A DNA stretch of 44,854 nt, taken from a virus. The stretch covers positions 1 through 44,854 of IMG/VR virus record IMGVR_UViG_3300025892_001961. One strand, given 5' to 3'. The notes beneath the pieces are model-generated. The model was not told the origin of the DNA and did not search any database. It saw only the letters and a program-made list of their open reading frames with translations. The position numbers were made by a program, and so were the translations under genes. Below, one piece after another: positions 13,042 through 43,613 of this stretch. Each line of letters begins with the position of its first letter. The stretch's first letter is position 1.

Positions 13042-13209
13042 TCACTTGGTGTAAGTGCGTCCACGATAGCAGAAAGTCCCGTGAGACTCTTTGCTTTCTA
13101 CACAACGGGTAGAATACTCAACACCACGATATGAGGTGTGATTAATCTGTGCGTCGTGAAGAGCAGATGCTTTGTTGATCTGCTTCTTGATGATGTTAAG
13201 TGTGTTCAT
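13042..13209 (-). CDS. DUF4278-like small protein, 55 aa
   Basis: The product has an N-terminal helix (MNTLNIIKKQINKASALHD), then YRGVEYSTRC and a terminal CYRGRTY. The paired Y-R-G-x-x-Y motifs are typical of the DUF4278 family found in cyanobacteria and their phages. An AGGAG lies upstream at good spacing (about 13217). A strong terminator follows. Function of the family is unknown. Confidence 0.75.
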   Translation of the reverse strand: MNTLNIIKKQINKASALHDAQINHTSYRGVEYSTRCVESKESHGTFCYRGRTYTK

Positions 13210-13251
13210 TGTAGGTACTCCTAAAGTAGTTGGATTTTTAGGTCCGTTCCT

Positions 13252-13416
13252 TTAGTCGTTTGCGTCCCATGGATAGCACTCAGGTGTAGATTCCTTTACG
13301 GCTTCTATTAGTTCAATCTTAACTTGATTGCTAAGATGTTCATGATTCTTCATCCGAAACATAATTGCATCGGCATCAGAACAACTGAGTGATGAATATA
13401 AAAGAAATTCAATCAT
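13252..13416 (-). CDS. 54-aa peptide downstream of a glutamine-type riboswitch
   Basis: The protein starts MIEFLLYSSLSCSDADAI and ends KESTPECYPWDAND. This resembles the short conserved protein encoded after 'Downstream-peptide' RNAs in marine cyanobacteria and cyanophages. The start at 13416 lies directly after the second CGTTCATCCC copy. The longer 81-residue reading to 13497 would begin upstream of the likely transcription start and translate the RNA element, so I reject it. The peptide is small and soluble with an acidic end. Its function is unknown, but control by glutamine would tie it to nitrogen status. Confidence 0.75.
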   Translation of the reverse strand: MIEFLLYSSLSCSDADAIMFRMKNHEHLSNQVKIELIEAVKESTPECYPWDAND

Positions 13417-13478
13417 GGGATGAACGGCTCCGTTCCGCGACTTACTTGCGTCCCACCCAAGAGTGGGATGAACGTCAG
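13417..13478 (-). promoter_or_regulatory. Probable glutamine riboswitch (Downstream-peptide / glutamine-II type)
   Basis: The leftward RNA reads CGTTCATCCC (13474-13465), a hairpin TCCCAC/GTGGGA (13468-13463 with 13456-13451), then GACGCAAGTAAG and GGAACG. CGTTC can pair with GAACG (13435-13431) as the closing stem. The loop CTTG can pair with CAAG (13447-13444) as a pseudoknot. These features match my memory of the glnA/Downstream-peptide aptamers, which bind L-glutamine. The CGTTCATCCC is repeated exactly at 13426-13417, so GAACG can instead pair with the second copy, placing the GGAG ribosome site in a hairpin loop next to the ATG. Confidence 0.7.
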
Positions 13479-13483
13479 GTCCT

Positions 13484-13512
13484 ATTATAGACCTCATATC
13501 TTATTTAGTCAA
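13484..13512 (-). promoter_or_regulatory. Sigma70-type promoter for the riboswitch gene
   Basis: Leftward TTGACT (13512-13507), a 17-base spacer and TATAAT (13489-13484) place the transcript start near 13477, right at the 5' end of the aptamer. The -35 also overlaps a CTAAATA late-type box. Confidence 0.75.
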
Positions 13513-20329: not shown

Positions 20330-20490
20330 TGTACTGAAAAAAAAGTAAGATCATCAGGGAAATGATGGTTTTACTATTCCTGTATCACCCTTAGATACAG
20401 GTATGAAAGACGTTTTTATACACCCTAGAGGTCTTGGTTTGCGGGGTGTTACGACTTGTTAAGGAATGTGTTGGTTCCTTAACCTCTCGA
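20330..20490 (-). promoter_or_regulatory. Structured psbA leader (possible PhotoRC-II-type RNA)
   Basis: The leader of about 155 bases has several perfect inverted repeats: TTAAGGAA/TTCCTTAA (20482-20475 with 20466-20459), ACACCC/GGGTGT (20449-20444 with 20425-20420) and CCTGTATC/GATACAGG (20401-20394 with 20386-20379), plus a smaller ATCAT/ATGAT near the start. A U-rich stretch precedes the ATG and there is no Shine-Dalgarno site. PhotoRC-II RNAs are described upstream of psbA in marine cyanobacteria and cyanophages. I infer this identity from location and structure; I cannot check the consensus. Confidence 0.6.
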
Positions 20491-42547: not shown

Positions 42548-42559
42548 AGAGGGAACTTT

Positions 42560-42655
42560 CATGCACGCCACTTGCTCTTTTACCTGAAGCAAGAAACAGG
42601 GCGGGAGTGTTACCTCCATCCGCACCACTTACTCTTAGGTAAAGTAAGAAACCTC
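42560..42655 (-). promoter_or_regulatory. Tandem covarying hairpins upstream of gmd (wcaG-type RNA candidate)
   Basis: Two units share GTTTCTTRCTT and AGAGYAAGTGGYG: one at 42652-42623, the other at 42597-42566. In each, CTTRCT pairs with AGYAAG; the changing base pair (A-T in one, G-C in the other) keeps the stem. A small GGAG/CTCC hairpin separates them. The RNA lies between the 68-residue gene and the terminator before gmd. A 'wcaG' RNA class is described in cyanophages upstream of sugar genes; I infer a link from context and cannot check the consensus. Confidence 0.55.
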
Positions 42656-42860
42656 AGAGATCGCCAAACTTAGCAGGAAATTCACGCTTGAGTGCAGCAA
42701 TCAGTTGCTCTACTCTTGCAGCATCTCCACCGCCACCGCCGCCGTCACATTTTTCATGTGCTTTCGCTTCTAATGCCTTTACCCTTGCTTCGATTTCTAC
42801 ATCATACTTGGACATTGCTGCTCCGCTTGCAGACTTTGCTGCTTTTCCTTGAATTGACAT
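42654..42860 (-). CDS. Small conserved cyanophage protein with Gly tract, 68 aa
   Basis: The sequence MSIQGKAAKSASGAAMSKYD is followed by a helix (VEIEARVKALEAKAHEKC), a run of Gly and a C-terminal helix (VEQLIAALKREF). This resembles a small coiled-coil virion protein common in cyanophages. A late box lies 27 bases upstream. Function unknown. Confidence 0.65.
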   Translation of the reverse strand: MSIQGKAAKSASGAAMSKYDVEIEARVKALEAKAHEKCDGGGGGGDAARVEQLIAALKREFPAKFGDL

Positions 42861-43465: not shown

Positions 43466-43538
43466 TGCTTCCTGTGAGGATCGAACTCACCTTAGGCAAA
43501 TTATGAGTTTGCTGCATTCACCAGATTGCTAAGGAAGC
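43466..43538 (-). tRNA. tRNA-Met (anticodon CAT)
   Basis: A full cloverleaf can be folded: acceptor GCTTCCT/AGGAAGC, a D arm, anticodon stem GCAAA/TTTGC with loop CTCATAA (anticodon CAT), variable CTAAG and T arm GTGAG/CTCAC with TTCGATC. The G1-C72 pair argues against an initiator. It could be elongator Met or, if the host modifies C34, an Ile tRNA for AUA. CCA is not encoded. Confidence 0.85.
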
Positions 43539-43541
43539 AAA

Positions 43542-43613
43542 TAGGACTGCTGGGAATTGAACCCAGTTTACCCCGTTATAAGCAGAGAGCATTAACCAAT
43601 ATGCGACAGTCCC
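43542..43613 (-). tRNA. tRNA-Ile (anticodon TAT)
   Basis: Cloverleaf: acceptor GGGACTG/CAGTCCT (one G-T), D arm GCAT/ATGC, anticodon stem CTCTG/CGGGG with two G-T pairs, loop CTTATAA giving TAT, T arm CTGGG/CCCAG with TTCAATT. It would read AUA, which is frequent in this AT-rich phage. It ends three bases from the tRNA-Met gene. Confidence 0.78.

Follow-up and report, generated by a model that had tools for sequence, protein, structure and literature searches.

Covariation points to two interlocked glutamine aptamers, one nested within the other, in the leader of a cyanophage operon

Introduction

Glutamine riboswitches are known in cyanophages and other marine phages (PMC9964418, PMC9602691, PMC9004378), and in cyanobacteria they are found mainly ahead of DUF4278 genes, where they act as ON switches (PMC6316151, PMC6698751). 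Two aptamer classes are close to the locus described here. The glutamine-I aptamer (glnA RNA, RF01739; structure 5DDP) combines a CGUUC/GAACG P1 helix, an A, a P2 hairpin, CG-X-AAGUA, P3 and GAAG with a long-range X23-N60 pair, which is G-C in the crystallised RNA (PMC5393176), and with a DUF4278 target gene. The glutamine-II aptamer (Downstream-peptide RNA, RF01704; PMC6698751) has a ligand site that includes a CGC and the C19-G41 pair, a short ORF downstream and a marine cyanobacterial setting, and it crystallised as a dimer with exchanged strands. The tandem glnA riboswitches (Weinberg 2010, PMC2864571) carry two copies of a glutamine aptamer in a single leader, and natural circularly permuted RNAs (hammerhead, twister, 5S rRNA, group II intron; PMC10085705) have cores with a rotated strand order, although the latter source, as of 2023, lists no natural permuted riboswitch aptamer.

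Here we analyze a leader in virus record IMGVR_UViG_3300025892_001961 (positions 1 to 44,854; this whole stretch of 44,854 nucleotides is called the window). The source is a T4-like cyanophage, with phoH, thyX, talC and petE nearby. The leader shares parts with all of these systems, and it differs from tandem glnA RNAs in that its two GAACGG strands are exchanged and one aptamer lies inside the other.

Results

All features of the locus lie on the minus strand and are given below in the order of transcription. They include the consensus-like promoter and the exact 10-base duplicate abutting a start codon that had been pointed out in the initial annotation.

13484-13512, minus: sigma70-like promoter seen in the sequence, TTGACT (13512-13507), 17-nt spacer, TATAAT (13489-13484)
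13477-13494, minus: palindrome AGGTCtataataGGACCT around the -10 box, assessed by stem counts against shuffles
13474-13465, minus: copy 1 of the exact 10-mer, CGTTCATCCC
13470-13474, minus: CGTTC of copy 1, 5' strand of outer P1, covarying with 13245-13249 and not with 13431-13435
13451-13468, minus: outer P2 hairpin TCCCAC/GTGGGA, covariation at 3/4 counted pairs
13443-13450, minus: outer core CGC-AAGTA (glutamine-I CGGAAGUA, with C23 for G23), AAGTA in 196/196 records
13438-13442, minus: 5' strand of outer P3, AGTCG, covarying with 13254-13258
13430-13436, minus: near GGAACGG, 3'-type strand of inner P1 placed first, changing from GAACG/CGTTC to CAACG/CGTTG together with copy 2
13427-13431, minus: GGAGC, the last base of the near GAACG plus the loop GAGC, containing a GGAG that resembles a ribosome-binding sequence
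13426-13417, minus: copy 2, an exact repeat of CGTTCATCCC, abutting the ATG at 13416
13422-13426, minus: CGTTC of copy 2, 5' strand of inner P1, with covariation
13414-13420, minus: 5' strand of inner P2', TCCCATG, including the ORF2 ATG and pairing with 13271-13265
13252-13416, minus: ORF2, 54 codons, phrog_504 (PHROG match 5e-28), in the loop of inner P2'
13265-13271, minus: 3' strand of inner P2', CATGGGA, inside the codons Pro-Trp-Asp
13262-13264, minus: inner core CGC (G18 and C19 equivalents), C19-G41 in 78/80 distinct sequences
13254-13258, minus: 3' strand of outer P3, CGACT, overlapping the ORF2 stop codon TAA (13254-13252)
13244-13253, minus: outer AAAG-GAACG-G, i.e. the 3' side of the E-loop ([G/A]AAG in 196/196), the far GAACG (13249-13245, covarying with copy 1) and G60
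13221-13255, minus: OFF hairpin CTAAAG/CTTTAG, a competitor of the outer aptamer that extends into the ORF3 Shine-Dalgarno sequence
13218-13222, minus: Shine-Dalgarno sequence of ORF3, AGGAG, from the sequence
13042-13209, minus: ORF3, 55 aa, phrog_545 (1e-35), DUF4278-like

After copy 1 the window runs through the P2 hairpin, GACGCAAGTAAGTCGCGGAACGG (with the near GAACG at 13435-13431) and AGC into copy 2 and the ATG of ORF2. By simple arithmetic, an exact 10-mer repeat within 96 bases has a chance expectation of about 0.004. The promoter layout is shared with many homologous loci. A search with the ORF2 protein matched at least 142 viral contigs, of which 80 were kept, and copy 2, the near core and a far core were present in 79 of the 80 loci recovered by this protein alone; the sole exception was cut off by the edge of its contig. 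The duplicate is thus kept in homologous phages. The proposal of a glutamine-type aptamer core was borne out as well, yet a second core past the ORF had been missed, and the full element extends beyond ORF2 to 13221. This second core, GGGACGCAAACGACTAAAGGAACGG, is made up of the last ORF2 codons (CCA TGG GAC GCA AAC GAC TAA), overlaps the stop codon and lies upstream of ORF3; it is followed by CTTTAGGAG and the ORF3 ATG.

From these parts we consider it likely, on comparative sequence evidence, that the leader of this two-gene operon consists of two interlocked L-glutamine aptamers, the inner one nested in P3 of the outer one. Within the limits of such evidence, covariation demonstrates the four-strand pairing, P3, P2, P2', the OFF hairpin and the location of genes in the P2 loops. 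Structure was counted in 38 rows picked for variety from 80 distinct core sequences (196 parsed records): 98.7% were paired, double changes were seen in 12/26 pairs and none of 500 shuffles reached any of the measures, while slid controls dropped to 28-52% paired.

The outer module consists of the copy 1 strand, the P2 hairpin, CGC-AAGUA, P3 AGUCG/CGACU, (A/G)AAG and the far GAACG-G, with P3 spanning about 190 nt. Because CGC-AAGUA of the first core joins (G/A)AAG-GAACG-G of the second core, the glutamine-I consensus is complete with its E-loop; the three-way junction of P1, P2 and P3 with the AAGUA...GAAG E-loop is present, and all three helices covary. P3 is found in four compensated forms across the inner aptamer (AGUCG/CGACU, AGUUG/CAACU, AGUCA/UGACU and AGUAA/UUACU), and the long-range pair C23-G60, which is G-C in the crystallised glutamine-I RNA and C-G here, is present in 79/80 distinct sequences. 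Covariation thus shows the outer module to be a canonical glutamine-I aptamer with putative ligand binding. It has every part of glutamine-I named above, including the DUF4278 target gene, and is unlike it in that P3 encloses a second aptamer and a gene.

An Rfam scan of the window at the gathering cut-offs gave no glutamine match. Below gathering both families named in the initial annotation match the window, Glutamine-II with 24.7 (cut-off 33) and Glutamine-I with 24.5 bits (cut-off 35), the latter in a tandem-like alignment with the ORF in the way. Only where ORF2 is absent does the ordinary Glutamine-I model attain its cut-off, and there it aligns through P3 (L090 43.6, L116 40.3, isolate ACG-2014f 41.1). 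Members without ORF2 are L090, L115, L116, L131 and the isolates Bellamy and ACG-2014f, in which the second core follows copy 2 and a short hairpin.

The inner module has the order near GGAACGG, a 2-3-nt loop, copy 2 CGUUC, A, P2' and CGC, and the helix between the near GAACG and copy 2 is without mismatch in 196 records. The loop is found as GAG, GAGC, GAA, GAT or GTTC, and GGAG is thus not strictly conserved; it had been placed in the loop of this hairpin, and at 13431-13428 it does run through the loop, but its first base is the last base of the GAACG-CGTTC stem. In a CAACG subgroup of seven loci the loop is GTTC in place of GAG, which abolishes the GGAG of ORF2, and initiation of ORF2 may be independent of a Shine-Dalgarno sequence there. 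The entire ORF2 lies within the P2' loop, and the start codon is paired in P2' in many members, the window included. P2' covaries across ORF2, with GATTATGG/CCATAATC in L133 and CCCC/GGGG in four other loci, and its mean helix is 5.67 compared with 5.18 when partners are swapped (maximum of 500, 5.33).

In 78-80 of 80 sequences the inner module retains the ligand-site bases of glutamine-II (C1-G40, G2-C39, G18, C19-G41, G35 and A6). The best Glutamine-II score was 32.1 in ACG-2014f, so that gathering was not reached, and the 24.7 of the window comes from the alignment of the initial annotation; a covariance model is unable to score a permuted strand order. A P2 helix closing a pseudoknot with a CGUUC 5' of GAACG is absent, since the inner GAACG precedes its CGUUC and covaries in that order. 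Compared with glutamine-II, the inner module has the same ligand-site bases, including CGC and C19-G41, and the strand swap seen in the crystal dimer occurs here within one RNA; it differs in its permuted strand order, in lacking the P2 pseudoknot closure and in carrying a gene in the P1(II) hairpin loop. We take these features to suggest a circularly permuted glutamine aptamer inside the outer P3, with putative ligand binding. A purely structural extension of P3 that masks the ORF2 start without itself binding a ligand, on top of a real outer glutamine-I aptamer, would also account for part of this, since the inner module has no P3 and E-loop of its own and its ligand binding is putative, and since the permuted order closes P1 with 2-3 nt only and could strain C19-G41. 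We regard this as the less likely reading, although it deserves attention, because a plain hairpin would be expected to drift, whereas all ligand-site bases are kept, and because pair 5 alone changes, which is also among the variable pairs of known aptamers (PMC6698751).

The nested arrangement depends on which of the four P1 strands pair, i.e. copy 1, the near GAACG, copy 2 and the far GAACG. Pairs 1-4 of P1 are invariant and so uninformative with respect to nested or tandem pairing, and pair 5 and P3 alone discriminate. Base 5 varies in each strand, and in the 196 records the combinations copy 1/near/copy 2/far were C/G/C/G (168), C/C/G/G (18), T/C/G/A (9) and T/G/C/A (1). Among the 80 distinct sequences, pair 5 of the outer P1 (copy 1 with the far strand) was C-G in 76 and T-A in 4, and pair 5 of the inner P1 (near strand with copy 2) was G-C in 65 and C-G in 15, with zero violations in either helix and with all four combinations of outer and inner states occurring. 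For two loci with CGTTT in copy 1 (L083 and L147) the nested model had predicted the far strand AAACG before inspection, and this was the sequence found; all further records with A in the far strand, found by a far-strand pattern and parsed, had T in copy 1. It should be noted that one search pattern required CAACG/CGTTG jointly and others fixed parts of the core, so the invariance counts lean on them, whereas the ORF2 protein search and a far-strand pattern that put no constraint on copy 1 introduce no bias at the pairs under test and agree with each other. Supported contrasts on a tree of ORF2 and ORF3 DNA were concordant for the nested partners in 5/5 cases (inner P1), 2/2 (outer P1) and 3/3 (first pair of P2'), and for the tandem partners in about 0.2/5. 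The contrasts are few, since P1 pairs 1-4 show no variation.

On this evidence an ordinary tandem leader, in which copy 1 would pair with the near GAACG and copy 2 with the far one and a gene would have entered the second glutamine aptamer, is improbable. GAACG/CGTTC on all four strands makes such pairing possible in most members, tandem glnA RNAs are known (PMC2864571) and Rfam favours a second-aptamer reading in L377 (42.8), L170 (40.4), Bellamy (34.5) and L115 (30.9); but pair 5 of the tandem helices is broken in 15 and 16 of the 80 distinct sequences while the nested pairs are intact, the covarying P3 AGUCG/CGACU exists in the nested fold only, and neither tandem half has the whole glutamine-I E-loop, either AAGUA or GAAG being absent. 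Pair 5 and P3 were the grounds for rejecting a simple tandem interrupted by a gene, but a tandem fold may survive as an alternative state, since some members score best as a canonical second aptamer. Judged from sequence, the inner and outer modules are equivalent to a tandem pair with its two GAACGG strands exchanged, and a tandem glnA leader is possibly the ancestor of the nested element.

The strand-exchange switch before one gene that was proposed in the initial annotation, taken here as one in which copy 2 traps the GAACG of a single aptamer together with the ORF2 ribosome site until glutamine frees copy 2 and turns ORF2 on, is highly improbable even though its hairpin is real by covariation (15/80, no mismatch) and is the preferred unbound fold with a probability of 0.99, because the GAACG is not kept as the partner of copy 1 (violated in 15/80), members with copy 1 more than 200 nt upstream, before another gene, do not fit, and the far core and the covariation of P3 and P2' across the ORF are left unexplained. 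The plain competitor hairpin was dropped once the far core and its covariation had appeared, and copy 2 is better described as supplying the 5' side of P1 to a second aptamer, the rest of which lies 150 nt downstream, after the ORF; two nested aptamers with swapped strands fit the evidence better. For loci seemingly devoid of copy 1, the idea of a free-standing permuted aptamer was likewise rejected when copy 1 was found 203-238 nt upstream, before another ORF.

Third-position entropy in ORF2 is 1.2-1.3 bits in the body, which has coding-type codon variation, and below 0.1 in the last six codons, which double as aptamer. In two loci ORF2 stops ahead of the core and the core is retained, and in AGUUG-class members the C-terminus DAKGN replaces DAND, so that the peptide is altered and the helix preserved. 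ORF2 gave no Pfam match above cut-off and no NCBIfam match, and its AlphaFold model is a two-helix hairpin (pLDDT 81), a shape too simple for an informative fold comparison. ORF3, which matches Pfam DUF4278 at 3.5e-4, below cut-off, is most likely the regulated downstream gene. A further gene, ORF1 (about 66 aa, phrog_6471), is found between copy 1 and the first core in 34 records, with its stop codon adjoining GACGC in most of them. From the placement of ORF1 and ORF2 relative to the cores it follows that the genes occupy the P2 loops. The ORFs are annotated as hypothetical proteins.

Some variation was noted in these loops. ORF1 in the outer P2 loop (at least eight loci) has a hydrophobic N-terminus, and many members have the ORF1 stop codon paired with the bases that precede the ORF1 start codon (TCTTATG/TATAAGA, TCTCATG/CATGAGA). 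A near-identical long palindrome, ATTCGCTATT(T/C)GC(G/A)AATAGCGAAT, replaces the outer P2 loop in eight loci and the inner P2' loop in L131 instead, as if a short mobile inverted repeat settled in these hairpins.

The complete element was present in 16 of 17 inspected Kyanoviridae isolates (S-SSM2, S-SM2, S-MbCM25, ACG-2014a/d/e/f, S-RIM2/8/12/44, S-CAM9, Bellamy, S-RSM4, WH25-B and S-SCSM2R, the family of the last being not yet assigned in its record); S-8S53 has a run of N inside the element. S-CRES1, a different kind of phage with a weak ORF3 match only, does not carry it. The four isolate genomes checked have one copy each, and ORF3 homologues occur in 372 phage records. Among 84,980 bacterial and archaeal species scanned, the only matches were five contigs, filed under Saprospiraceae, Rhodospirillaceae, Nonlabens and Euryarchaeota and none of them under a cyanobacterium, and a host origin was rejected. 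The presence of the cyanophage element in these five suggests that contigs of phage origin were binned or assembled together with those genomes. Above the Rfam cut-offs the window has a wcaG RNA, a PhotoRC-II RNA and two tRNAs (42557-42656, 20366-20461 and 43466-43613, all minus).

Discussion

The leader is most likely, judging from its sequence, a two-site glutamine ON switch for ORF3 in which the start and stop codons of ORF2 form part of the aptamer helices. The OFF hairpin covaries (A-U 77, G-C 76, G-U 36, A-C 0), and an unconstrained fold of the 298-nt leader gave it a probability of 0.94, next to about 1.0 for P2' with the ORF2 start. At low glutamine the OFF hairpin would silence ORF3. 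At high glutamine the nested fold would form both P1 helices (copy 1 with the far GAACG, near GAACG with copy 2) and P3, and would release CUUUAGGAG; the ligand would stabilise the outer aptamer, break the OFF hairpin and turn ORF3 on, and the inner aptamer could be stabilised too via stacking or the shared P3, two sites giving a steep response. Glutamine should release ORF3 because formation of the outer aptamer uses the 5' strand of the OFF hairpin, and this agrees with the known ON switches before DUF4278 genes (PMC6316151). In silico the unbound fold (-76.3 kcal/mol) is better than the nested fold (-70.2 kcal/mol) by about 6 kcal/mol, and ligand and tertiary energy must therefore pay for the latter. 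The bound model predicts some residual pairing of the ORF3 Shine-Dalgarno sequence, and its calculated opening is weak.

For ORF2 itself, glutamine control finds no support in the folding model, which predicts P2' closed in both states. ORF2 may be started only while P2' is open, e.g. before its 3' half has been transcribed. A ribosome ending ORF2 would cover P3 and the far GAACG, and ORF2 translation and aptamer folding would therefore be mutually exclusive. It is an evenly balanced question whether the nested permuted aptamer in P3, the genes in hairpin loops (that of P2' for ORF2 and, in 34 records, that of the outer P2 for ORF1 as well), the start and stop codons in helices and the exclusion between translation and binding add up to a gene-in-riboswitch logic element that exchanges one phage protein for another depending on the glutamine level of the host.

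DUF4278 is the N-terminal domain of the glutamine synthetase inactivating factor IF17. If the proposed function is correct, DUF4278 would connect phage expression with host nitrogen assimilation and two phage genes would be tied to the nitrogen state of the host, and we infer that the leader could sense host nitrogen status, as was suggested initially. No nested, permuted or gene-bearing riboswitch or aptamer was found in the literature searched, the coverage of which is incomplete. If the model is right, natural circular permutation of a riboswitch aptamer and an aptamer within an aptamer would both, as far as we have found, be without precedent, and whole genes would reside inside a ligand-binding RNA. 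The element is widespread in a major marine virus group, where it is annotated as hypothetical proteins only. It offers a way to study the sharing of a single RNA between two nested binding sites and a translating ribosome.

The palindrome around the -10 box has a stem of at least 6 in 127/150 distinct upstream sequences compared with 13% of shuffles. In the window (13477-13508) and upstream of most related loci its arms change together among phages (AGGTC..GACCT, GGTATACTAATACC, GAGTTATAATTACTC), and the palindrome may form a 5' hairpin in a late transcript or serve as a site for a regulator. Between the -35 and -10 boxes the window and most related loci have CTAAATA or ATAAATA, which resembles a T4-type late promoter.
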